From positions 1 through 33,953 of IMG/VR virus record IMGVR_UViG_3300031654_000145: DNA of 33,953 nt; one strand, written 5' to 3'. Position 1 is the stretch's first letter, and each line of letters starts with the position of its first letter. Positions 1,010 through 33,953 of the stretch are shown piece by piece. Source of the stretch: a virus. A program made the translations under genes and the position numbers. The notes under the pieces are model-generated. The model was given only the letters and a program-made list of their open reading frames with translations. It searched no databases and was not told where the DNA came from.

Positions 1010-1750
1010 ATGTTAAGAGTAATATATCAACCAAAAGGCAGAGCTGCGGAATACAAAGAGTGGGCGGTAAACCTATATAGAGGATGTGGGCATTGCTGTC
1101 GCTATTGTTACGCCCCGAGCATACTTAGGATTCCGACGCTGGAGTTCAACGATCCCAAGCCGAGAAAGGACATAATCGAAAAGCTCACAAAGGACTGCAA
1201 GGAACTCCGGTCCCGGATGGAGTCACTGCTAGTCCTGGTGTGTTTCACTTGCGACCCTTACCAGCCGATAAACGACCATCACCAGATAACACGCAAGGCA
1301 ATCCAGATCCTACAGGCCCACGGGCAAAGAGTGGCTATACTAACCAAAGGCGGCCACCGGTCGCAAGCCGATATCCCCTTGCTCAGACCAGGACTCGATG
1401 AATATGCCACGACGCTAACTTGCATTGACGCAGAGCTATCAAGGAAGTGGGAACCGTTCGCAGCTCTACCTATGGAAAGAATTGGAGCCCTCGCAGAAGC
1501 CCACGACAGAGGTGTATACACTTGGGTATCGATGGAGCCAGTGCTATATCCCGACCAAAGCCTTGAGCTAATCCGGGTGTCATCCCCCTTTGTGGACGAA
1601 TACAAGCTCGGCATACTGAACTATCACCCACACGCCAAGACAATCAACTGGCGGGAATACGGCCTAAAGGCCGCAGAGCTAGTCAATAACCTGGGCAAGA
1701 AAATCTATATCAAGGAAGACCTCAGAAGATACTTGAGAGGGGTGGTATAA
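1010..1750 (+). CDS. radical SAM protein, spore photoproduct lyase-like (SplB/Rv2578c type)
   Basis: This 246-residue protein has a CxxxCxxC cluster (Cys26, Cys30, Cys33, in the context GCGHCCRYCYAP), the signature that binds a 4Fe-4S cluster and cleaves S-adenosylmethionine. The aromatic residue before the last Cys and the following YAP match the SPL-like group. A TIM-barrel-like body follows, including FTCDPYQP near residue 82, a segment with TKGG, and WVSMEPV near residue 170. The start is supported by AGGAGAGG just upstream. Family knowledge: SPL proper repairs spore photoproduct in DNA, while related phage and bacterial members have unknown substrates. The sequence does not identify the substrate; a DNA or nucleotide modification or repair role is inference. 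Confidence 0.88.
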   Translation: MLRVIYQPKGRAAEYKEWAVNLYRGCGHCCRYCYAPSILRIPTLEFNDPKPRKDIIEKLTKDCKELRSRMESLLVLVCFTCDPYQPINDHHQITRKAIQILQAHGQRVAILTKGGHRSQADIPLLRPGLDEYATTLTCIDAELSRKWEPFAALPMERIGALAEAHDRGVYTWVSMEPVLYPDQSLELIRVSSPFVDEYKLGILNYHPHAKTINWREYGLKAAELVNNLGKKIYIKEDLRRYLRGVV

Positions 1751-3395: not shown

Positions 3396-3443
3396 AGACA
3401 TATAGACGCATAGACATATAGATACATGGACACATAGGCGGAT
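3396..3443 (+). repeat. degenerate 8-bp tandem (iteron-like) array upstream of the small terminase gene
   Basis: Six consecutive 8-bp units are visible: AGACATAT, AGACGCAT, AGACATAT, AGATACAT, GGACACAT, AGGCGGAT. The array ends five bases before the ATG at 3449. The last unit contains AGGCGG, which may double as the Shine-Dalgarno. Such repeats next to a small terminase gene are candidates for the packaging recognition (pac/cos) site. Confidence 0.6.
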
Positions 3444-3448
3444 ATATA

Positions 3449-4534
3449 ATGGCGGAAACCCAAAAGAAGCAGCATGTAGAGTTCAATAGGAAGATAAGAC
3501 TCCGCAAGGAGCTGATGGAGAAGGCCGGCAAGCTGACCGGCGCCTTCTATATACCCTTCATCGGCGAGGGCGATATAGCGGTCGCCTTATATAGTAATAA
3601 TAGTATATATGGCGCCGACATCGACCCAGCCATGGTCGAGACAGCCAGATCCCGGTTGCCAAACGCCAATATAATAACCGCCGACTGCGACCAGTTTCCG
3701 TTCTATATAGAGGATATAGAAAAGAAAGCCACATACTCACTCGCCGACTTCGACTCCTATTCCTACCCATATGATTCCTTTCGTAGCTTCTTCAAGGGGG
3801 CTAAATTAAGCCCTCAGTGCGTCTTAATCTTCACAGATGGACAGAGACAGGCTATTATACGCACCGGCCACTATAGAACGCCCGATGGAGAGAAGCATCA
3901 CCTTAAAACAGTAACCGAAAAGAGAGAGGTTTATAACTTCTATTATAATAGAATAATACTACCCTGGTTTAATGAATATATAAAGCCATATGAGGTAGTT
4001 TACATAACGAAATACCTCCGTAGTATGAATCAGCTATGCTGGGGTGCTGTAATAGCTCTCCCTTCAATAGAGAGCCATATAGAGAAGGAGAACGAAAACG
4101 GGGGGATCAAACCATACAAATTCGACGCTATAAAAAAGGCCAAGTATCTTGAGCATATAGGGAATGGGCAGACTCGGGGGTATGCTGCGACTCTCACCGG
4201 CATCCATCGGCAGACCGTGGCAGCTCACATGAAAGCGGATAAGGAGTTTGCCAGAGCGGTATCTGAAGCTGAAAGTGATGCTATAGGGAAAATGGAGAAC
4301 GCGCTCTTTGAGGCGGGGACTAGCGGGAATGTTACTGCGCAACAAGTATACCTATATAACCGGAACCCCAGGAGATGGGCGGACCGGAGAAATATCCGCA
4401 TTGCCGGCGAAGGCGGCGGACCTGTAGAGGTAGAGATAGATGCCAAAGGAAAACTCATTAGCCTACTCAATCGCATTGCTGCCAGAGCGGGAGAGGCAGA
4501 AGGCAGTAGAGAGCCTAACCCAACAGGAAGCTGA
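3449..4534 (+). CDS. SAM-dependent methyltransferase / small terminase fusion
   Basis: This is a 361-residue protein. Residues ~28-200 look like a class I methyltransferase: a glycine loop (YIPFIGEGDIA), an acidic strand end (YGADIDPAMV) and ADCDQFPF. A DFDSYSYPYDSF segment at ~100-110 recalls the Trm1-like DxDxxxxP region. Residues ~218-330 look like a small terminase (TerS) DNA-binding module: an HTH with GYAATLTGIHRQTVAAHM, then helices ending YLYNRNPRRWADR, as in TerS proteins with a homeodomain-like HTH. Position directly before the large terminase supports the TerS call. TerS recognises packaging sites; the methyltransferase substrate is unknown. The ribosome binding site is weak (AGGCGG) and the gene overlaps the large terminase by 95 bases. 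No internal stop separates the halves. Confidence 0.75.
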   Translation: MAETQKKQHVEFNRKIRLRKELMEKAGKLTGAFYIPFIGEGDIAVALYSNNSIYGADIDPAMVETARSRLPNANIITADCDQFPFYIEDIEKKATYSLADFDSYSYPYDSFRSFFKGAKLSPQCVLIFTDGQRQAIIRTGHYRTPDGEKHHLKTVTEKREVYNFYYNRIILPWFNEYIKPYEVVYITKYLRSMNQLCWGAVIALPSIESHIEKENENGGIKPYKFDAIKKAKYLEHIGNGQTRGYAATLTGIHRQTVAAHMKADKEFARAVSEAESDAIGKMENALFEAGTSGNVTAQQVYLYNRNPRRWADRRNIRIAGEGGGPVEVEIDAKGKLISLLNRIAARAGEAEGSREPNPTGS

Positions 4535-6494
4535 AGCTCTTATATATGACTGGGAAGTATGGGCTAGGCCGAAGCAACTACCGCCTGACTGGAACTGGTA
4601 TATATGGCTATTGCTCAGCGGCCGTGGCGGTGGCAAGACTCGCACCGGTGCCGAGCTGACCGTCAAGTGGGCAAGAGAGGGATTCAGCCCTATAGCCCTG
4701 GTTGGGCAGACTAAGGCCGATGTCAGGGATACCATGGTTGAGGTCGGGGAGTCGGCAATACTCAATATATGCCCGCCATGGTTCAGGCCTGATTACGAGT
4801 CTTCAAAGCGCCGGCTGACATTCCCCAATGGAGTGCTGGCCATAATCTATTCAGGGGATGAGCCGGATCAGCTTCGCGGACCGCAGCATTGTTTTGTCGC
4901 TGGAACTTTGATAGCAACTCCTTGTGGTGAGCGACCGATAGAGACAATCAAAAAAGGCGACTATGTTATAACTCGTCAAGGGAAATGTAGGGTAGTAGAA
5001 ACTTTTAGCAGAGTCGCTGAAGTGGGGCGAGTCAAGTTCTCAAATGGCACTGAACTGATTGCAACAAGACAGCACTATGTGTTACAATTGCTTGGGTGGA
5101 TGAGGATAGTAGACTTAAAAAAGGGGGCAATTGTATGCACTGGCGAGAAACTTCTAACGGATATATCGCAGCCTATTTTGATGGCAAGAAGGTTTACCAA
5201 CACAGATGGGTTTGGGAACAACATCACGGGCCTATCCCAAAGGGTTTTGAAGTTCATCACAGGGATGAGGTTAAAAAGCACAACGATATTAGCAACCTGT
5301 TTCTCAAGGCAAAGTCACCGCATCGTCGCCTACATGACCGAACTAGGGAAAGAATTATGGTTAAGTGCGAAGATTGCGGGGCAGACATTGCTAGGATTAG
5401 AAATTACCCCAGTCCCGCAGTTTGCAGGAGCTGCCAATCTAAACGAGCAGAGGAACGGCGTAAATCAGATAGGATATGCCAAGTATGTGGCAGCCACTAT
5501 AAATCAAGAGAGCGGGATTTCAACAAGGGGAACTTCTGTAGCCAGCGTTGTGTCAACTTGGGAGCACGCTGGGCGGGCAAAGGTCTATAACCTTACAGTA
5601 GAAGACCAGCCCGAATATATAGCTAATAGTATTATCGTTCACAATTGCAAGGCGTGGGTAGATGAGCTGAGCAAGTTCAAGTATCCGCAGGACACCTGGG
5701 ACAACCTGATGTTCGGCTTGCGTATAGGAGATAAGCCCCAGGCAGTGGTTACCACCACACCGCGACCAATCAAGGCCATTAAGGCACTGGTGGAGGATAG
5801 CAGGACGGCGGTCACCCGAGGACATACCCTGGAGAACAAGGACAATCTGGCACCTGACTTCTTGAACTATATCCTGAGAAAGTATGAAGGCACCAGGCTC
5901 GGTCGGCAGGAACTGGCCGGGGAGATACTGGATGATAACCCCGAGGCATTATGGCAGCGGGATAAGATAGATGAGCTGAGGGTGAAGAAGCATCCTGACT
6001 TGACAAGGGTAGTGGTGGCCATAGATCCCCAGGGGACCGACAACCCAGAGTCAGCCGAGACGGGGATTATAGTCGCTGGCATAGCCCATGTCGGTGACCG
6101 GATAGAAGGCTATATCCTGGCTGACATGACACTGAGTGGCTCTCCGGAGAAGTGGGCAAGTGCGGCAGTGGCTGGCTATCATAACTTTAAGGCTGACCGA
6201 ATAGTAGCTGAAGTAAACTTTGGCGGGGATATGGTTGAGAGCATCATTCGAGTTATGGGTGGCGGGATAGCATTTAAGAAAGTCCATGCCAGCCACGGTA
6301 AGTATGTCAGGGCAGAGCCGGTGTCGGCGCTATACGAGCAGGGCAGGGTTCACCATGTTGGATTCTTCCCAGAGTTGGAGGACCAGCTCTGCGAATGGGA
6401 ACCAGGGGATAAGTCTCCGGACAGGCTCGATGCCATGGTCTGGGCGATAACCGAGCTGATGCTTGGGACGGAGAGACTTGTGAGGTTTGGATAA
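4440..6494 (+). CDS. terL: terminase large subunit (intein-containing precursor)
   Basis: The precursor has 684 residues; removing the 252-residue intein (residues 151-402) leaves 432, normal for a TerL. N-terminal ATPase: YDWEVWARPKQLPP, a Walker A of GRGGGKT (residues 61-67, Lys66), and a Walker B of KAWVDEL (Asp408-Glu409) after the intein, in the usual RGPQ-x-AW-DEL context. C-terminal RNase H-like nuclease: AIDPQG with Asp529, EVNFGGD, and SPDRLDAMVWA with Asp664. TerL cuts and translocates phage DNA through the portal. The start overlaps the fused TerS gene by 95 bases; YDWEVWARP near residue 37 fits known N-termini. Activity should need intein splicing, since Walker B is otherwise interrupted. 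Confidence 0.95.
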   Translation: MPKENSLAYSIALLPERERQKAVESLTQQEAEALIYDWEVWARPKQLPPDWNWYIWLLLSGRGGGKTRTGAELTVKWAREGFSPIALVGQTKADVRDTMVEVGESAILNICPPWFRPDYESSKRRLTFPNGVLAIIYSGDEPDQLRGPQHCFVAGTLIATPCGERPIETIKKGDYVITRQGKCRVVETFSRVAEVGRVKFSNGTELIATRQHYVLQLLGWMRIVDLKKGAIVCTGEKLLTDISQPILMARRFTNTDGFGNNITGLSQRVLKFITGMRLKSTTILATCFSRQSHRIVAYMTELGKELWLSAKIAGQTLLGLEITPVPQFAGAANLNEQRNGVNQIGYAKYVAATINQESGISTRGTSVASVVSTWEHAGRAKVYNLTVEDQPEYIANSIIVHNCKAWVDELSKFKYPQDTWDNLMFGLRIGDKPQAVVTTTPRPIKAIKALVEDSRTAVTRGHTLENKDNLAPDFLNYILRKYEGTRLGRQELAGEILDDNPEALWQRDKIDELRVKKHPDLTRVVVAIDPQGTDNPESAETGIIVAGIAHVGDRIEGYILADMTLSGSPEKWASAAVAGYHNFKADRIVAEVNFGGDMVESIIRVMGGGIAFKKVHASHGKYVRAEPVSALYEQGRVHHVGFFPELEDQLCEWEPGDKSPDRLDAMVWAITELMLGTERLVRFG
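4890..5645 (+). other. intein in the terminase large subunit
   Basis: This is a 252-residue in-frame insertion. It starts with Cys (CFVAGTLIATPCGERPIE, splicing block A), has TRQH in block B (ATRQHYVL), and ends with block F/G (VYNLTVEDQPEYIA, then IIVHN) followed by Cys as the +1 residue. Both splice junctions, His|Cys and Asn|Cys, are canonical for class 1 inteins. It interrupts the conserved RGPQ-H/AWVDEL Walker B region. The middle ~150 residues show no LAGLIDADG motif in this frame; that stretch instead encodes an HNH protein in another frame. Confidence 0.92.
5135..5590 (+). CDS. HNH homing endonuclease nested out of frame within the intein
   Basis: This 151-residue protein lies entirely inside the intein DNA but in a different frame from terL. 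The ATG at 5135 has AAGGGGG at 5121-5127, a good Shine-Dalgarno; an ATG at 5096 is in frame but unsupported. The N-terminal half is an HNH_3-like nuclease: QHRWVWEQHHGPIPKG, VHHRDEVKKHNDISNL and PHRRLH give the H-N-H constellation. The C-terminal half has two zinc knuckles (CEDC, CRSC; CQVC, CSQRC) for metal or DNA binding. Homing endonucleases cut intein-less alleles and drive spread of the element. Expression as a separate protein is inferred. Confidence 0.85.
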   Translation: MHWRETSNGYIAAYFDGKKVYQHRWVWEQHHGPIPKGFEVHHRDEVKKHNDISNLFLKAKSPHRRLHDRTRERIMVKCEDCGADIARIRNYPSPAVCRSCQSKRAEERRKSDRICQVCGSHYKSRERDFNKGNFCSQRCVNLGARWAGKGL

Positions 6495-7077: not shown

Positions 7078-9164
7078 CCGTTGCCCTTCTGCCGAGGTCG
7101 GTTAAGAAGGACGCCATGAGTCCCTTCCAGGTATTGTCAACCCAGTCTCCGAATATACCGGTCTACAGCGAGATGACAGTGCGGAAGGCTACCCGGGAAG
7201 GCTATAAATTGTCGCCCTCTGTCTACCGCGCCGTCAGGGTAATCGTGCAGGCGGCCTCTGGAATCCCCTGGATAGTGGAAGATAATAAGGGCGAAGTCAT
7301 ACCCGACCACGATTTTCCTAAAGTGTGGGCAAAGCCCAATCCTGAATTCTCAGGGCAGGATAATATGGAGTTTATCATCGCCCACCTCAAGCTGACGGGC
7401 AATGCCCTTGTCCAGCCAGTCATAGTCAACGGGAGGCCGAGGGAATTTTGGATATGTATGCCGGATTTAATCCAGCCGATCCCCTCGGATGTTCCAGGAG
7501 AATGGCTGAAGGGTTACAGGGTGACCAGCGGAGACGGCAGGCAGTATGATGTGCCACCCGAGCAGTTCATCCACTTTATGCAGTTCGACCCGGGCAATCC
7601 CTACTGGGGCATGGGCGATTTGCTGGCCGCCGCCAGGACTGTTGACACCGACAACGAGGCACAGGACACGCAGAAGGTATCGATGCAGAACCGAGGTACC
7701 CCTGACGGGGTTTTTGAAGCTGAAGCTATGACCAATGAGCAATATGAAGAAGCAAACCGAATGCTAAAAGAGCGGTACCTGAGCAAAGAGAAGAGGCGCT
7801 TGCCCTGGATAGTGGCCGGGGCTAAATGGCACCAGATGAGCCTAACCCCGGTAGAGATGGACTATATCAAGTCACGGCTCCACAACAAAAGGGATGTAGC
7901 CGGGGCATTTGGCATCAGCCCCATATTCCTGGGCGACCTCGAGCAGTCCAGCTATGCCAACATGATGGAAGCCCGCAAGGCTCTGTATGAAGACGTGGTG
8001 ATCCCGCTGCTGGACGATATAAAGTCCACGCTGAACCTCAAGATAGCCCCGATGTATGGGGATATAGTCATAACCTACGATGTGTCCCGCATACCGGCTC
8101 TGCGGGAAGACTACGGCAAGAAGGTAGACCAGGCACAGAAGCTATGGCAAATGGGCATCCCATTCGACCAGATAAATCAGAGACTGGAGATGGGTTTTGA
8201 GGAGTTCCCGGGCTGGGGCAGGGGATATCTGCCATTGAACCTGCTACCGACCAGTGGCTCGTCAGCCCCAGCTCCAGAAGAGCCGAAATCACTGGAAGAG
8301 TTTGAGAAAATGATGCCCAAGACCTTGGCTGAAGCTATCCCCTGGCTTGAAGAAATGCGAGGCAGGGTATCTGATAAGTGGATTAGTGATGCGATGAAAG
8401 CCCTCAATCTCCAGACCGAGGAGGCTAAAACAGCCCACTGGAAGCGTATAGACAGGCGCCGAGTGGCTTGGTGGGGAGTGGTGAGTAATAAGATTAAGCC
8501 GCTGTATGAGGCAGAGGTAAGAGCCATTGAGAAAGCTATCAGGGGAAAGAAGCCTGATAAGTTACTATCCGCAGCCGATGGAGCTATAGACAGCGGAAAG
8601 GCTGAGTGGGAGAAGGTGCTGACAGCGGTTTGCGCTGCCCTCATTGAGGACTTCGGTAGTGAGATAGCCGAAGACCTCGGTGCGGAGAAATCAGATAAGC
8701 CCACTGAGACAAAGTGGATGTTTGACCCGATGAGTGCGACAGCCAGGGCGTGGCTAGTCAAGCACGGCGCCGAGAGCATCAAGACCATACTGGCCACTAA
8801 CCTAGATGATGTTAAGCGAGTTATCTTGGCGGGAACGGATGAGAACCTGAGCACCGCACAGATAGGTAGGAACCTTCGGCAGTTCTACACGGACAGGTCG
8901 GCTTTCAAGGCGATGCGTGTAGCCAGGACTGAGACATCTCATGCTGCGGGCTTTGGGCAGAGAGAGGCCGCCAGGCAGTCGGGAGTAGTGAAGACAAAGA
9001 GTTGGATTTCAAGCCGGGACGATAGGGTCCGGGATGAGCATGTTCTTATGGATACTGACGAGAACCACGACATACCCTTTGATAAACCCTATTCAGACGG
9101 CTCAATGTATCCAGGCGAGCTAGCTATCAACTGCCGATGTGTTGAAAGCTATGGGACAAGATAG
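7050..9164 (+). CDS. portal protein fused to MuF-like minor head protein
   Basis: This is a 704-residue protein; the ATG at 7050 has AGGAGAGAAG upstream. Residues ~40-400 match HK97-type portals: an N-terminal LSPSVYRAVRVI segment, PPEQFIHF, and the AGAFGISPIFLGDLEQSSYANMMEARKALYE core. Portals form the dodecameric DNA gate at one capsid vertex. Residues ~570-704 match the phage Mu gpF (MuF) domain, with RVARTETSHAAG and a C-terminal NCRCVESY. MuF proteins are minor head components associated with the portal. A Ser/Pro/Ala-rich linker (~405-415) and a charged helical region join the two. It overlaps the Cys4-HTH gene upstream and is followed by the prohead protease, as usual. Confidence 0.92.
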   Translation: MFDTLRKRIAVALLPRSVKKDAMSPFQVLSTQSPNIPVYSEMTVRKATREGYKLSPSVYRAVRVIVQAASGIPWIVEDNKGEVIPDHDFPKVWAKPNPEFSGQDNMEFIIAHLKLTGNALVQPVIVNGRPREFWICMPDLIQPIPSDVPGEWLKGYRVTSGDGRQYDVPPEQFIHFMQFDPGNPYWGMGDLLAAARTVDTDNEAQDTQKVSMQNRGTPDGVFEAEAMTNEQYEEANRMLKERYLSKEKRRLPWIVAGAKWHQMSLTPVEMDYIKSRLHNKRDVAGAFGISPIFLGDLEQSSYANMMEARKALYEDVVIPLLDDIKSTLNLKIAPMYGDIVITYDVSRIPALREDYGKKVDQAQKLWQMGIPFDQINQRLEMGFEEFPGWGRGYLPLNLLPTSGSSAPAPEEPKSLEEFEKMMPKTLAEAIPWLEEMRGRVSDKWISDAMKALNLQTEEAKTAHWKRIDRRRVAWWGVVSNKIKPLYEAEVRAIEKAIRGKKPDKLLSAADGAIDSGKAEWEKVLTAVCAALIEDFGSEIAEDLGAEKSDKPTETKWMFDPMSATARAWLVKHGAESIKTILATNLDDVKRVILAGTDENLSTAQIGRNLRQFYTDRSAFKAMRVARTETSHAAGFGQREAARQSGVVKTKSWISSRDDRVRDEHVLMDTDENHDIPFDKPYSDGSMYPGELAINCRCVESYGTR

Positions 9165-9192
9165 TAATAAGTCAGAAACAGGGAGGTAAATC

Positions 9193-10416
9193 ATGCTAGA
9201 GCGCAAAACAGTCCAGTTCGAGGTCAAGGAAGTTGACGAAGAGGAGGGCACCTTTGAGGGTTATGCGGCCACCTTCTCCAGCAAGCCGGACAGTTGGGGG
9301 GACATAATTGACAAGGGGGCTTTCAAGAAGACTATCAAAGAAAGATTCAACCGGGTTAAAATCCTCTGGAACCACAGCACCATGGAGCCGATAGGCAAGC
9401 CCACGGAGTTGACAGAGGATGAGAAGGGGTTGCTAGTTAAGGGTAAACTCAGCCTCGGGGTCCAGAGAGCACGGGAAGTCCTGAGCCTGATGAAGGATGG
9501 CGTCATTACCGAGATGTCAATCGGCTACGACACCATGAAGGAAACATGGCAAGAGGGCATCCGGCACCTGCAGGAGATTAGGTTGTGGGATACATCGCCA
9601 GTGACCTTCGCCGCTAATCCAGAGGCGGTGGTGTTAAGCGTGAAGAAAGCTACCAGCTTTGGCAACCTACCCCTGGCTGACCGCGACAGGGAGTGGGATG
9701 CCTCGGCTTGCGAGAGGAGAGTCAGAGTCTGGGCCGGCGGCGAGGACAACATAAACTGGAATAAATACCGCCAGGCATTTTTCTGGTATGACGAGGGAGA
9801 TCCTGAGCTGTTCGGCAGTTACAAGCTGGGCTTCGTCGACATTATCAATAACCGGCTTACTGCCATCCCCAAGGGCATATTTGCCGTTGCCGGCGTGCTG
9901 ATGGGCGCCAGGGGCGGAGTTGACATTCCCGAAGCTGATGAGGCGGGGGTCAAAACCCATGTAGAGAAATACTACGCCAAGATGCGGAAGGAATTTGACG
10001 ATGAGGACATAGTAGCTCCTTGGAACAAAGAGGAGACATTCAAATGTGAATGTCTTGACTGTGGGCATAAGCTTGAATCCGAAAAGCACTGTAGTGATAT
10101 TAAATGCCCGAAATGTGGTGGTGAAATGAGAAGGGCTGAACGCCCTGGCCCGGGAAAGTCAGATGAGAAATCAGGGCGTGTCTTGAGTGCCTCTAGTCTG
10201 GATAAAGTCCGGGCGGCCCTGAACGCTCTCCAAGCACTTCTTGAAGCCGCTGAAAATGAGCCAGAGCCGGTTAAATCCACTCTACTCACGGAAGCTAACA
10301 AAGAAGCCGCAGAACTGGAGACGGTAATAGCCGCACTCAAGGCCGAGAACGAAGGCTTTGATACCAAAGAAGCCGAGAGGCGAATCGAAGCCATGCTTGA
10401 GCAACTGAGGAAATAA
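9193..10416 (+). CDS. HK97-family prohead protease (S78) with zinc ribbon and coiled-coil extension
   Basis: The 407-residue protein has AGGGAGG upstream of ATG. Residues 1-155 are the protease: FEGYAATF, catalytic His61 in WNHS and Ser109 in EMSIGY, and the WDTSPVTFAANPEA segment near residue 137. It processes the capsid and scaffold during head maturation. Residues ~155-280 form an extra domain (PLADRDREWD through IVAPWNKEE) found with some phage proteases. Residues 285-316 are a zinc ribbon (CECLDCGH, CSDIKCPKCGGEM). Residues ~330-407 are an Ala/Glu-rich coiled coil that could act as scaffold. The length is about twice that of a minimal S78 protease. The capsid gene follows directly. Confidence 0.9.
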   Translation: MLERKTVQFEVKEVDEEEGTFEGYAATFSSKPDSWGDIIDKGAFKKTIKERFNRVKILWNHSTMEPIGKPTELTEDEKGLLVKGKLSLGVQRAREVLSLMKDGVITEMSIGYDTMKETWQEGIRHLQEIRLWDTSPVTFAANPEAVVLSVKKATSFGNLPLADRDREWDASACERRVRVWAGGEDNINWNKYRQAFFWYDEGDPELFGSYKLGFVDIINNRLTAIPKGIFAVAGVLMGARGGVDIPEADEAGVKTHVEKYYAKMRKEFDDEDIVAPWNKEETFKCECLDCGHKLESEKHCSDIKCPKCGGEMRRAERPGPGKSDEKSGRVLSASSLDKVRAALNALQALLEAAENEPEPVKSTLLTEANKEAAELETVIAALKAENEGFDTKEAERRIEAMLEQLRK

Positions 10417-10435
10417 ACGAGAGAGGTAAAACGCA

Positions 10436-11683
10436 ATGGAATTAAAAGACCTAGCAGACATGATCCAGAGTGCAGTGGAGGAGCTGCACAACGCGGTGGA
10501 GCGTCAGGACGCCGAGATTGCGAAGTTCGGCGTAGTCACCGGTGAGACCAAGTCGACCATAGAGAAGATCAACACCGACCTGACCGAGCTCATAGGCCAG
10601 AAGGCTGACCATGACAAGAAGGTTGAAGAGCTCGAGGTCAAGCTCCAGCGCCAGACCATACCAGCCCCCGGTGCTCCAGGTGGACCCGAGGGAGCAACCG
10701 AGGAGCAGAAAGCCCGCAAGGCAGCCTTCTACAAGTATATCCGAGGCGGTGAGGTAGCTCTTGCTCCCGAGGAACGGAAAGCCTTGGTAGAGGATGCCAC
10801 CGGCCAGTTCCTGGTTGAGCCAGAACTGGATGCTGAGATCATCCGCGAGCTGCCGAAAATCACTGTTATCCGAGGCCTGGCCACGGTTCGCACAATCGGT
10901 AAAGACCGCATCAAGATGCGCAGCATTGGCGGGGTATCCGTAGGCTGGGGCAAGCTGGAGACCGGCGCTGAAATCACCGAATCCAGCCCAGTTCCTGCAA
11001 CGCCTACTTACCAATATGTGGAAGACCTCTACGGCCTAGCCAAGATCGGTGAAGATGAGCTGCAGGACTCCGACTTTAACCTTGAGCCCATACTGGCAGA
11101 GGAATTTGCCAGGGCTTTAGGTGAGGAAGAGGACAAGCAGTTCATACTCGGCGATGGCCACGATGTGGAGGAACCTGAGGGCATTACCAAGAATGCTACC
11201 CTTATCACCGCCGGCAATTTCGTAACGTCGAGTGTAGCGGGTGCTGTCACCGTAGAGAAGTTCCTTGAACTGCTTTACAAGTGCCCGACCCAGTTCCGGA
11301 GGAACGGTTCTTTTATAGTGAACTCCGCCACCGAACTGGCTCTCAGGCAGTTGAGAGGGAAGACCGGCGAGAGCTACGAGGGGCCATTCCTGTGGCAGCC
11401 GAGCACTCAAGAGGGCAAACCCAACACATTCTTGGGCAGACCAATCTACACCCAAGACGATGTCCTTGACCTTACCACATGTGGCACGGGGGGAGTATTC
11501 GCTATCTTCGGCGACATCAAGGCAGGCTACCGCATCGTGGACCGCATGGGCATGACCATCCAGAGGCTGACCGAGCTCTACTCCGAGGCCGGCCTAGTCG
11601 GCTTCAAGATTCACAAGCGGGTCACTGGCGGCGTCATGCGGGCAAGCCAGTTACCTCTGACCCTTATGGTCGAGCACTCCTAG
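10436..11683 (+). CDS. major capsid protein, HK97 fold
   Basis: The 415-residue protein begins with a ~75-residue coiled coil, typical of the HK97 delta/scaffold segment, then a Pro/Gly linker. Protease cleavage probably falls between the coiled coil and residue ~110. The mature part contains VEPELDAEIIRELPKITVIRGLATV (in pieces), an E-loop-like stretch with WGKLETGAEITES, TPTYQYVEDLYGLAKIGEDEL, LGDGHDVEEPEGI and a C-terminal region ending RVTGGVMRASQ. This order is characteristic of Phage_capsid proteins. The gene lies right after the protease, with GAGAGG upstream of the ATG. Confidence 0.93.
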   Translation: MELKDLADMIQSAVEELHNAVERQDAEIAKFGVVTGETKSTIEKINTDLTELIGQKADHDKKVEELEVKLQRQTIPAPGAPGGPEGATEEQKARKAAFYKYIRGGEVALAPEERKALVEDATGQFLVEPELDAEIIRELPKITVIRGLATVRTIGKDRIKMRSIGGVSVGWGKLETGAEITESSPVPATPTYQYVEDLYGLAKIGEDELQDSDFNLEPILAEEFARALGEEEDKQFILGDGHDVEEPEGITKNATLITAGNFVTSSVAGAVTVEKFLELLYKCPTQFRRNGSFIVNSATELALRQLRGKTGESYEGPFLWQPSTQEGKPNTFLGRPIYTQDDVLDLTTCGTGGVFAIFGDIKAGYRIVDRMGMTIQRLTELYSEAGLVGFKIHKRVTGGVMRASQLPLTLMVEHS

Positions 11684-11718
11684 TAATAGGTGAAGCGAAT
11701 AGAGTCGAGAAATAAAAC

Positions 11719-11743
11719 GGGGCGGTGAAAATGATTCCGCCCC
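11719..11743 (+). other. GC-rich hairpin downstream of the capsid gene
   Basis: GGGGCGG (11719-11725) pairs perfectly with CCGCCCC (11737-11743) around an 11-base loop. No T-tract follows, so it is more likely an mRNA-stabilising, processing or pausing hairpin than a terminator. It lies just upstream of the AAAGG ribosome binding site of the next gene. Confidence 0.6.
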
Positions 11744-11759
11744 AAAGGAAAGGTGACAC

Positions 11760-12521
11760 ATGACTGCAAAAATGCACAGAATGCACTTACCCAAGGTGGG
11801 AGAGGGCGTGCTCCACATTCCTGGTGGCACACCCTATCAGGTGGATACCGAACAGCAGTATGAGCTAGGGACATATGTGAGATTCGGTAATAAGGGGTTT
11901 GTCTACGCCAAAGCTGGCGGCACCCTCGTTCCTGATATTGGAGCCAAGCAGGCTAACAACCAGAAGATTGGCAATGTAGCCATTGCGGCTGATGCCGATG
12001 CTGGAACGCTGGTTATTACCTTTGAGTGCAATGTTGCCCTAGATGCTAACGAGCTAGCGGGTGGTGAGATAGTTGTCTTCCCTACTGGAAACAAGGCGTT
12101 TACCCGTAGGATAGTCAGCCACGCATCAAACGGTGGTGCCGCCGACTTAGCAGTAACCGTAGATTCTCCTATCCCCGTAGACCTAACTGACGGGGGCGGT
12201 AGCGTCGAATGCATACTCGACCCCTATGATGGTGTCACCCAAGACAGTAACGAATGGACTCCTGTTTTGGGCATGCCCGTGATAGGCGCTTCCGATGGCG
12301 AGTATTTATGGCTTCAAGTCGAAGGTATATCCTGGTGTGCTCCTGAAGGTGAGGTTGGAGCAGCTGCTAATTCCGTCGAGGTATGCTTCGGTGGTGATGG
12401 CGCTCTCCGATTACGTGATTCAGAATGTCTAGGGGAGCAGCGAGCAGGAATGGTTATCGCTCCTAATACTACTGGAAATGGTCAAGGCGCTCCATTCATC
12501 ATGCTCAATATAGACCACTAG
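11760..12521 (+). CDS. putative capsid decoration/structural protein
   Basis: The 253-residue protein starts at ATG 11760 behind AAAGGTG. It is acidic, Gly/Ala/Val-rich and predicted to be mostly beta strand, with repeated Asp-Gly turns. GTYVRFGNKGFVYAKAGGT and a long middle domain ending before IVSHASNG look like phage head surface proteins. Position right after the major capsid protein, isolated by hairpins on both sides, suggests abundant, separately tuned expression as expected for decoration proteins. I cannot assign a named family. Confidence 0.65.
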   Translation: MTAKMHRMHLPKVGEGVLHIPGGTPYQVDTEQQYELGTYVRFGNKGFVYAKAGGTLVPDIGAKQANNQKIGNVAIAADADAGTLVITFECNVALDANELAGGEIVVFPTGNKAFTRRIVSHASNGGAADLAVTVDSPIPVDLTDGGGSVECILDPYDGVTQDSNEWTPVLGMPVIGASDGEYLWLQVEGISWCAPEGEVGAAANSVEVCFGGDGALRLRDSECLGEQRAGMVIAPNTTGNGQGAPFIMLNIDH

Positions 12522-12551
12522 AGAATAGCCCCGTTCTAGTGCGGGGTTCTC
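12521..12551 (+). terminator. hairpin after decoration gene, weak terminator
   Basis: GAGAA (12521-12525) and CCCCG (12529-12533) pair with CGGGG (12542-12546) and TTCTC (12547-12551), with a three-base TAG bulge on the 5' side. Only a short CTTTCT follows, so termination would be partial. The stem begins on the last base of the stop codon. Confidence 0.5.
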
Positions 12552-24033: not shown

Positions 24034-25920
24034 ATGGCTTACGCCAAAATTGAGCCTACTGGCTGTGGGGAATTTCACGGCAATGTTAAGGTAAGGCTTG
24101 CTTTTTATCTGGAGCCTGGCGATGCCCGCTATGATGAACGGCACTACCTTGTGCCTATAATACCACCTGAAGGCTACCAAGGTAAACTAACCTTAATGGG
24201 TATGCCAACTAGCCAAGCTGATTATGACGCTTGGTTAGAGAGCCTGCCTAAAAAATGGGTATTAGCTCCCTTTCATAATCACTTCATTTATTGCGACCCC
24301 GACATTACTGAGCAAGAGATACAGGATATTGCTTCGTTCCATCTGCCTAACTTTTACCGAGCTTGGCTAGAAGAAAAAGATAAAATTAAAGGCGGTATGA
24401 GGTCTGGTTGGGCTGTTGAAACACGAGTTAGACCAATCAGATATGAAGGACTTGATAAGCCTGAGATATTTACCCTTAGAAGAGCACAAGCTCAAGAAAA
24501 AGCTGATTTATTAAAAGTATCTAACCTTTCTGTTCGTTCAAAAGATGTTGGTGAGATATTCCCCTCTACTGATATTGATATAGGTGTGGCGGCAACTGAT
24601 AGGGGGGCTAATGCTGGTGCGACCCTTACATATATTAACGAGGATAACCCAGCCAATGATACAGGGGCAATTGATGAAGTTGAAATATTCGCTTGGACAA
24701 TTAATGACTTAGCGGATTGTGAAGTTGCCACATTTACAGAAGGTGATACTGATGTCTTTTCAACTCGTGATACCGAAACTATTGGTGCAGTTACAGCAGG
24801 AAGTAAGCAAACATTCTCATCTTTAGATATGGATGTCGCCACAGGTGATTATATCGGGATTTATTTTTCTGCTGGCACTATTGAGAGGGATAACACTGGT
24901 TATATTGGACATTGGTATGCCGCAGGAGACAATATTCCCTGCACTGATGTAACATTCTCATCTTTGGCTGGTAGAACCATAAGCCTTTATGGAACAGGGG
25001 AGACGGCAGCAGTCCCAACGATAGTAACCCCTCCAACCATAAGCCTAACTCTAACCGAATATGCTCCATCTATTGTCATTGGCACTGTTGTTATACCCTC
25101 TACACTAAATCTGATAATTACGGCCTACGCCTCTATCTTGAAAGAGGTTTTAACCCCTAGCACGGCAAGTCTTACTATCACTGCATATAGCCCTGTCTTG
25201 AAAGAAATCATTACTCCCGGGACTCTTAGTCTAACTATAACTTCTTACGCGCCTTCGGTAGTTAAGGGGACAGTGGTAACTCCTAGCACGCTTAACTTAA
25301 TCTTAACTGCTTATGCCCCCTCGATAACTATCTCAAATAACATCACGGTTACACCTAGCACGGCAAGTCTTACTATCACCGCGTATAGCCCTATCCTGAA
25401 AGAAATCGTTACACCTACTACTCTGAGTTTAATCCTCACAAAGTATGCTCCTATCCTGAAAGAAATCGTTACACCTACTACTCTGAGTTTAATCCTCACA
25501 AAGTATGCTCCGATACTGATAGAGGGCACGATAATAACCCCTGGCAAACTTGGTTTAATACTTACAACTTATGCCCCATTTCTCGGAGTGGCAACAGTTA
25601 TAACCCCTGAGACTCTTAATTTAATCCTTACCAAGTATGCTCCAGATATCATCTTAAAAATCTATCCCTCTGGAGCTTTGGGCTATACCATTGAAGTGAG
25701 AGACAGCTCAGGCAATCTCTTGGTTGTCTTGGAGAATGCTACTGGGATAAACCTTGTGGAGCAGTTAAACCGGCCGCCGATGCTGGACTTTATCCTGCCG
25801 GCAGATGATAGCAAAATCAGTCACATAGACCCTGACAATGAGATATGGCTGAGGGATTACGAGACCGGGACATTGATAAGGAAATTCTTACTCAGTAGAC
25901 GGAGTGATACAAGAGGATGA
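24034..25920 (+). CDS. tail fibre-like protein with tandem beta repeats and N-terminal half of tail hub
   Basis: The 628-residue protein has TAGGAGG upstream. Residues ~1-150 form an N-terminal domain of unknown type. Residues ~165-325 form a beta domain with DIDIGVAATDRGA, NDTGAIDEVEIFAW and FSTRDTETIGAVTAGSKQTF, recurrent in phage tails. Residues ~331-545 are about twelve ~20-residue repeats of the form T-P-x-T-L-x-L-x-L-T-x-Y-A-P, one pair duplicated exactly at DNA level. The last ~85 residues (YTIEVRDSSGNLL, LNRPPMLDFILPADD, LIRKFLLSRRSDTRG) match the start of a Gp37-like tail hub. The gene ends ATGA with the next start. The first ~1 kb looks AT-richer than its neighbours. Confidence 0.75.
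   Translation: MAYAKIEPTGCGEFHGNVKVRLAFYLEPGDARYDERHYLVPIIPPEGYQGKLTLMGMPTSQADYDAWLESLPKKWVLAPFHNHFIYCDPDITEQEIQDIASFHLPNFYRAWLEEKDKIKGGMRSGWAVETRVRPIRYEGLDKPEIFTLRRAQAQEKADLLKVSNLSVRSKDVGEIFPSTDIDIGVAATDRGANAGATLTYINEDNPANDTGAIDEVEIFAWTINDLADCEVATFTEGDTDVFSTRDTETIGAVTAGSKQTFSSLDMDVATGDYIGIYFSAGTIERDNTGYIGHWYAAGDNIPCTDVTFSSLAGRTISLYGTGETAAVPTIVTPPTISLTLTEYAPSIVIGTVVIPSTLNLIITAYASILKEVLTPSTASLTITAYSPVLKEIITPGTLSLTITSYAPSVVKGTVVTPSTLNLILTAYAPSITISNNITVTPSTASLTITAYSPILKEIVTPTTLSLILTKYAPILKEIVTPTTLSLILTKYAPILIEGTIITPGKLGLILTTYAPFLGVATVITPETLNLILTKYAPDIILKIYPSGALGYTIEVRDSSGNLLVVLENATGINLVEQLNRPPMLDFILPADDSKISHIDPDNEIWLRDYETGTLIRKFLLSRRSDTRG
25390..25509 (+). repeat. exact 60-bp tandem duplication within the fibre repeat region
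   Basis: Bases 25390-25449 and 25450-25509 are identical, and the identity continues two bases further. Each 60-bp unit encodes one 20-residue fibre repeat, so the duplication keeps the frame. Exact identity amid diverged repeats shows a recent event. Confidence 0.92.
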
Positions 25921-33883: not shown

Positions 33884-33953
33884 TGCGGAGTAGAGCAATG
33901 GTAGCTCGCCAGACCCATTATCTGGAACTGGGGGTTCAAATCCCCCCTCCGTT
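33884..33953 (+). tRNA. tRNA with CAT anticodon (Met or Ile2), runs to window end
   Basis: Cloverleaf: acceptor 33884-33890 with 33947-33953, D-stem GAGC/GCTC (33893-33896, 33904-33907), anticodon stem CCAGA/TCTGG (33909-33913, 33921-33925), loop CCCATTA with anticodon CAT at 33916-33918, four-base variable loop, T-stem GGGGG/CCCCC (33930-33934, 33942-33946) with TTCAAAT loop. Oddities: C instead of T at position 33, T at 37, and a T-T mismatch at the first acceptor pair. The discriminator and CCA would lie beyond the window. CAT reads Met, or AUA if the C is modified to lysidine (Ile2); frequent AUA codons make the latter worth considering. Confidence 0.8.

Follow-up and report, generated by a model that had tools for sequence, protein, structure and literature searches.

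What is a methyltransferase doing in the same reading frame as a small terminase (TerS)? The question is raised by one gene in a sequence of 33,953 nucleotides from an uncultured bacterial virus (IMG/VR record IMGVR_UViG_3300031654_000145, positions 1 to 33,953), the whole of which is referred to here as the window. A sequence-only reading had proposed that a single uninterrupted ORF joins the two domains, and this holds to the nucleotide: the frame runs from ATG to stop without interruption on the plus strand (Table 1). The analyses below confirm that its product is a real two-domain protein, i.e. a methyltransferase followed by a TerS.

Table 1. Location of the fused gene, its domains and motifs, and two further genes in the window.
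Feature	Position	Strand	Basis or remark
Radical-SAM gene (PA0069/Rv2578c/COG1533-like), probable methyltransferase partner	1010..1750	+	Radical_SAM, E 3.9e-10; rSAM_PA0069, E 4e-20
Fused methyltransferase-TerS gene	3449..4534	+	361 aa; fusion kept in 7 other contigs
Class I SAM methyltransferase domain, aa 1-207	3449..4069	+	AlphaFold2, fold matches, Pfam
Motif I, YIPFIGEGDIA, aa 34-44; by its place in the fold the loop that would bind SAM	3548..3580	+	Y34, P36, G39, G41 and D42 invariant in 35 members
Motif II, IYGAD, aa 53-57; D57 expected to hold the SAM ribose	3605..3619	+	D57 invariant in 35 members
Motif IV, ADFDSYSYPY, aa 99-108; presumed catalytic strand end	3743..3772	+	D100 and P107 invariant; D102 in at least 90%
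Interdomain linker	4070..4114	+	Differs among relatives (alignment)
Small terminase domain (HTH, helical region, C-terminal tail)	4115..4534	+	PHROG; aligns with stand-alone TerS proteins
Large terminase (TerL) gene with in-frame intein	4440..6494	+	Terminase_6N, E 9e-19; Terminase_6C, E 6e-15; Hint_2; Intein_splicing

The identity of the C-terminal half, which had been described as TerS-like, was settled by profile searches. Residues ~223-361 match three PHROG small-terminase families (phrog_309, E 3.7e-12; phrog_4044, E 2.9e-9; phrog_4102, E 6.2e-7), and the TerL gene lies directly 3' of this half, a gene order that is the same in the relatives. In the window no plausible start codon is seen where the domains meet, the closest ones in frame being codons 193, 257 and 261, i.e. 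inside the domains; the enzyme is therefore probably part of every TerS subunit. That TerS might be translated separately, from a start inside the gene, was considered and set aside, the boundary being without a suitable start in the eight fusions except for a GTG at codon 212 in L015.

The N-terminal half had been read as methyltransferase-like, and the Rossmann fold that this implies is present. The structure of residues 1-207 was predicted by AlphaFold2 using an alignment of 35 family members, and the result is a complete class I methyltransferase (pLDDT 94.3, pTM 0.90). Strands and helices follow each other in the order expected for class I, with the motifs unpermuted, as judged from the model and from its matches in Foldseek and VIA-align. 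The predicted fold matched 787 PDB chains at E≤1e-3, those listed being SAM methyltransferases, and Pfam assigned Methyltransf_25 at E 4.7e-5, i.e. below the curated cut-off. The features of a class I enzyme are found in the sequence as well, namely a glycine-rich motif I and an acidic residue at the end of strand 2 (G39, G41, D42 and D57). The alignment reaches down to 36% identity, and the residues Y34, P36, G39, G41, D42, D57, D100, P107, A118, T129 and D130 are invariant throughout. The family consensus begins with KQHV..RK..LR..LL...YVPFIGDGDIA.ELY...YGAD.DP.RV..A..RLP....ADCD.WPF...VADFDAYSYPY and continues with.SFR.FW.....FFTDGQRQ...PDG...ERR..NFY...PWF...I.PY......YLR..M.YWGAVI. In the AlphaFold2 model this ~200-aa enzyme has no visible target recognition domain.

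The fold by itself says little about the substrate. The sequence-only reading had seen a likeness to Trm1-type enzymes in motif IV, and this is true in part. The motif IV of Trm1 is of the D-x-D-x-aromatic type, and the D-x-D-x-Y-x-x-P of the present family (ADFD[AS]YSYPY) is presumably of a similar kind; moreover, Trm1 (3axs) is one of the top-scoring structures, with a Z of 13.4 across 193 residues. The likeness is not specific, however, as the tRNA enzymes CmoM, Trm5b and TYW2 as well as small-molecule and protein methyltransferases tie with it at the top, and we do not claim any one of them as the structural relative. Ribosomal protein L11 methylase is also present among the structural matches. 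By sequence, a single solved structure comes near to matching, that of a tRNA dimethylguanosine enzyme at E 0.048, and none of the 35 members matches the TRM profile of the Trm1 family (PF02005) at E≤0.01. In other words, the family shares the unpermuted class I fold with the Trm1/TrmG10 tRNA guanine-N2 methyltransferases but differs from them in having no TRM assignment in Pfam, no RNA-binding domain and a fusion to TerS, and the structural match is a tied one. The [DNS]PP[YFW] motif IV of amino-methylating DNA enzymes (N6-adenine, N4-cytosine) is likewise not found in the family, which has ADFD[AS]YS[YF]PY at this place. An RNA or protein target is possible because motif IV departs from the DNA type and resembles that of Trm1, and because Trm1 is among the tied structural matches.

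The same fusion was found in seven further non-redundant contigs (L003 [equal to L002], L004, L005, L012, L014, L015 and L016) by scanning viral and genome contigs; they come from several metagenomes and one genome bin, and their proteins are 61-67% identical to that of the window over the full length. L015 is a contig in a Dehalococcoidia genome bin (MAG), which suggests hosts in the Chloroflexota, for the window phage by extension only. In the alignment of the relatives both domains are conserved while the linker varies in length and sequence. Two close pairs, taken from two fusion lineages, were used for calculating dN/dS. The values for the methyltransferase half and the TerS half were 0.095 and 0.113 in the pair L012/L015, and 0.113 and 0.116 in the pair L049/L086; more distant pairs gave 0.09-0.25, with dS near saturation. 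With ratios of ~0.1, both halves are under purifying selection. A chance ORF or an assembly artefact is ruled out because the seven further contigs, i.e. eight distinct records of the clade with the window, and distant contigs of other lineages carry fusions of the same domains. Homologues with two separate genes do exist and are common, but the fusion itself is conserved, and neither of the outcomes named beforehand as refuting it (no Rossmann fold, or a fusion that is merely an assembly artefact) came about.

The extent of this second arrangement was seen when the family was collected as a whole. Scanning with the clade alignment gave 40 methyltransferase loci, later 47. The ORFs of the loci were pooled, and iterative profiles were built for the methyltransferase, TerS, TerL and the radical-SAM protein. 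The methyltransferase is in one ORF with TerS in 16 of the 47 distinct members, and in 27 a separate TerS gene begins no more than 600 nt downstream, in many cases with an overlap at the stop codon. The four that remain are L075, where the gene is truncated, L053, where TerS is 1.7 kb away, L067, with no TerS in reach, and L069, which has an unassigned C-terminal extension; as this extension matched no TerS profile, it was not counted as a further fusion. PHROGs confirm the TerS part in the fusions L049, L058, L064, L074, L107 and L120. L058 has the domains the other way round, with the TerS-like part in front of the methyltransferase and another TerS following, and this reversed order alone is an independent event. 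On a tree of 43 methyltransferase domains the fused state requires 7 changes (6-7 in the bootstraps), at least two of which are forced by well-supported branches alone; many deep branches are weakly supported, which makes the exact number of fusion origins uncertain. Within these bounds, the fusion has arisen in several lineages, and fused or neighbouring pairs recur in viruses unrelated to that of the window. TerS proteins of the same family mostly occur without a methyltransferase, and since these, including the closest one (L006, 64% identity), work without it, the methyltransferase is best regarded as an accessory. The adjacency to TerS could partly reflect shared phage synteny.

As far as the comparisons go, the methyltransferase constitutes a ~200-aa phage family that has no name. 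Pfam, PHROG and NCBIfam are all without a dedicated model that matches it, and a tblastn search with four members against 50,697 deposited phages did not find the domain; the full 361-aa protein gave one weak match, to the TerS part. Among 400 genomes of the phylum of L015, the known locus alone matched strongly, and four others matched weakly over part of the domain.

A second gene accompanies the methyltransferase; like the separate methyltransferase genes beside TerS in many phages, it had escaped the sequence-only reading. Where more than 1.5 kb of upstream sequence was available (38 methyltransferase loci), the nearest 2.5 kb upstream include a radical-SAM or DUF5131 gene in 32 cases. Pfam identified DUF5131 in L051, L055, L072, L096, L098, L109, L110 and L120 (directly upstream) and Radical_SAM in L046 and L048; the partner in the window is a COG1533-like radical-SAM gene and not DUF5131. 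As a control we used loci that TerS alone had brought up and whose upstream sequence was 2.5 kb or longer. The radical-SAM gene was present in 4/6 of those with the methyltransferase vs 0/12 of those without (Fisher p 0.005), some of the twelve being copies of one phage; a recount with duplicates removed gave about 4/6 vs 0/9 (p about 0.01). The gene is absent from the sequenced flank of some family members. The DUF5131 proteins encoded beside the methyltransferase (L110 938-1708 and similar genes) match the candidate-defence models PDC-M41B and PDC-M30B (E 4e-80 and 2e-76). In the open-access literature searched we found no mention of DUF5131.

Pairing with DUF5131 (PF07505, Gp37/Gp68) is also a property of TcmP (TIGR04474, three-Cys-motif partner protein), which is methyltransferase-like too. 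The present methyltransferase differs in being linked to TerS as well. Membership in TcmP was rejected for lack of significant profile similarity: an alignment of profiles with four TcmP proteins kept the motif order at a non-significant hhalign probability of 0.8-1.4%, and none of the 35 members matched the NCBIfam TcmP model at E≤0.1.

Directly upstream of the fused gene, at 3396-3443, there are five to six degenerate tandem octamers (AGACATAT), which had been put forward as a possible packaging site. The repeats exist, but no comparable array was found upstream of the genes of 18 relatives, nor was any conserved candidate for a packaging site found upstream among the relatives. We did not adopt the octamers as a packaging site, as they are not conserved. 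Elsewhere in the window, a 60-bp tandem repeat (25390-25523, 2.2 copies, 95% identity) is located inside the ORF 24034-25920, and a tRNA-Met is found at the 3' end (33884-33953).

The neighbouring head and packaging genes show mobile elements of their own. The intein in the TerL of the window is intact, and its DNA also contains, in the +2 frame, a nested HNH endonuclease ORF (5096-5590). Three relatives have HNH and intein out of frame in this way (L004 4330-4770, L007 2238-2681 and L014 6631-7065), and TerL is free of the intein in L005, L012 and L016. In L002/L003 the portal-MuF gene (8776-12545) is broken up into several ORFs with a possible endonuclease-like ORF between them (11356-12003), which suggests an intron or other mobile insertions. 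In L006 (8002-9729) the portal-MuF ORF passes over into UbiE-like methyltransferase sequence (VLEIGCGNGRDS...) where the contig ends, i.e. either an insertion or a chimeric contig.

Two known systems offer partial parallels. In phage P1, packaging proceeds properly if the pac sites are Dam-methylated (PMC12707154, after Sternberg and Coulby 1990). P1 resembles the present case in that the phage has a methyltransferase of its own (Dmt) and that methylation state is linked to the initiation of packaging. In P1, however, the methyltransferase is separate, of the Dam type and not fused to the small terminase, whereas the present enzyme belongs to another family. The Bacillus phages Sam46 and Sam112 have a small terminase with an N-terminal FtsK_gamma domain (PMC8190038); there, too, a single ORF adds a domain in front of the small terminase, and this domain likely affects the choice of DNA. 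FtsK_gamma is a DNA-binding winged helix, whereas the extra domain here is an enzyme. Two-domain small terminases and methylation-dependent packaging are thus already known. In the open-access papers searched we found no description of a methyltransferase-TerS fusion, of an enzyme-bearing small terminase or of the present enzyme family; nor are methylation or fusion mentioned in a review devoted to small terminases (PMC9611059).

From these elements we infer catalytic activity, DNA as the substrate, TerS as the targeting part and a role in packaging. The TerS half would form the usual ring and engage viral DNA and TerL, and the N-terminal half would be an active, small SAM-dependent methyltransferase. 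As the latter has no recognition domain of its own, TerS would serve as its DNA-targeting part, by fusion in the window and as the product of a neighbouring gene elsewhere. The methyltransferase and the radical-SAM enzyme encoded nearby would then modify a base on the DNA held by TerS. By analogy with Dam methylation at P1 pac, the mark may serve packaging, i.e. it would license, orient or limit the initiation of packaging, or label the DNA as viral. We give this reading, a bifunctional packaging protein that together with a radical-SAM enzyme modifies bases at or near the packaging start, about as much credence as doubt. It is a tentative and rather doubtful proposal that the two enzymes carry out a two-step modification, delivered by TerS to the packaging start, by which phage DNA is selected, licensed or tagged.

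The main rival reading is general anti-restriction, in which the enzyme would protect the whole genome from host restriction and the link to TerS would just ensure that modification precedes packaging, with no role in the choice of the start. Guarding against restriction is a common task of phage methyltransferases (PMC4190342 and PMC12707154), and the sporadic presence of the gene in otherwise similar phages (L006 is without it) fits an accessory, host-dependent function. On the other hand, genome-wide protection needs no recurrent, TerS-specific fusion, let alone in both orders, and the ~200-aa domain shows no target recognition domain; we think general protection possible but on the whole unlikely.

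The remaining readings concern other substrates or none. Radical-SAM and methyltransferase pairs occur in tRNA modification (the wyosine pathway), which would agree with an enzyme that acts on tRNA or other structured RNA and became fused to TerS by chance of gene order. The tRNA enzymes among the top structural matches (CmoM, Trm5b, Trm1, TYW2) and the solved near-match by sequence point the same way, and so does L016, where the fused gene is immediately preceded (upstream of 2910) by a tRNA-like sequence whose anticodon is CAT. However, the structural matches are all ties, and several independent fusions to a DNA-binding packaging protein are hardly due to chance, which leaves an RNA target improbable. 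For a protein of the packaging machinery or head (TerL, portal or capsid) as the target it can be said that TerS contacts TerL and is near the portal, so that these would be the nearest substrates of a tethered enzyme, and that the L11 methylase is among the structural matches; the radical-SAM partner is then left unexplained, and we regard such a target as very improbable. Rossmann folds are often reused as scaffolds, and the domain might have lost catalysis and act as a SAM-binding sensor or as a structural extension of the TerS ring. This is scarcely to be expected, given that the residues of the cofactor site and of motif IV do not vary among the 35 members, whether fused or separate, that dN/dS is about 0.1, and that the domain is common in free-standing form.

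How phages of the headful and cos types choose their own DNA over that of the host is only partly understood, P1 being the standard case in which methylation is involved. The recurrent physical link between TerS and a methyltransferase, together with the radical-SAM gene, suggests that coupling of packaging to modification is widespread among phages not yet in culture. The finding defines an unnamed methyltransferase family that is absent from the libraries and deposited phages searched, and it gives TerS a possible enzymatic partner. It also names the residues and genes with which modification-coupled packaging can be put to the test.
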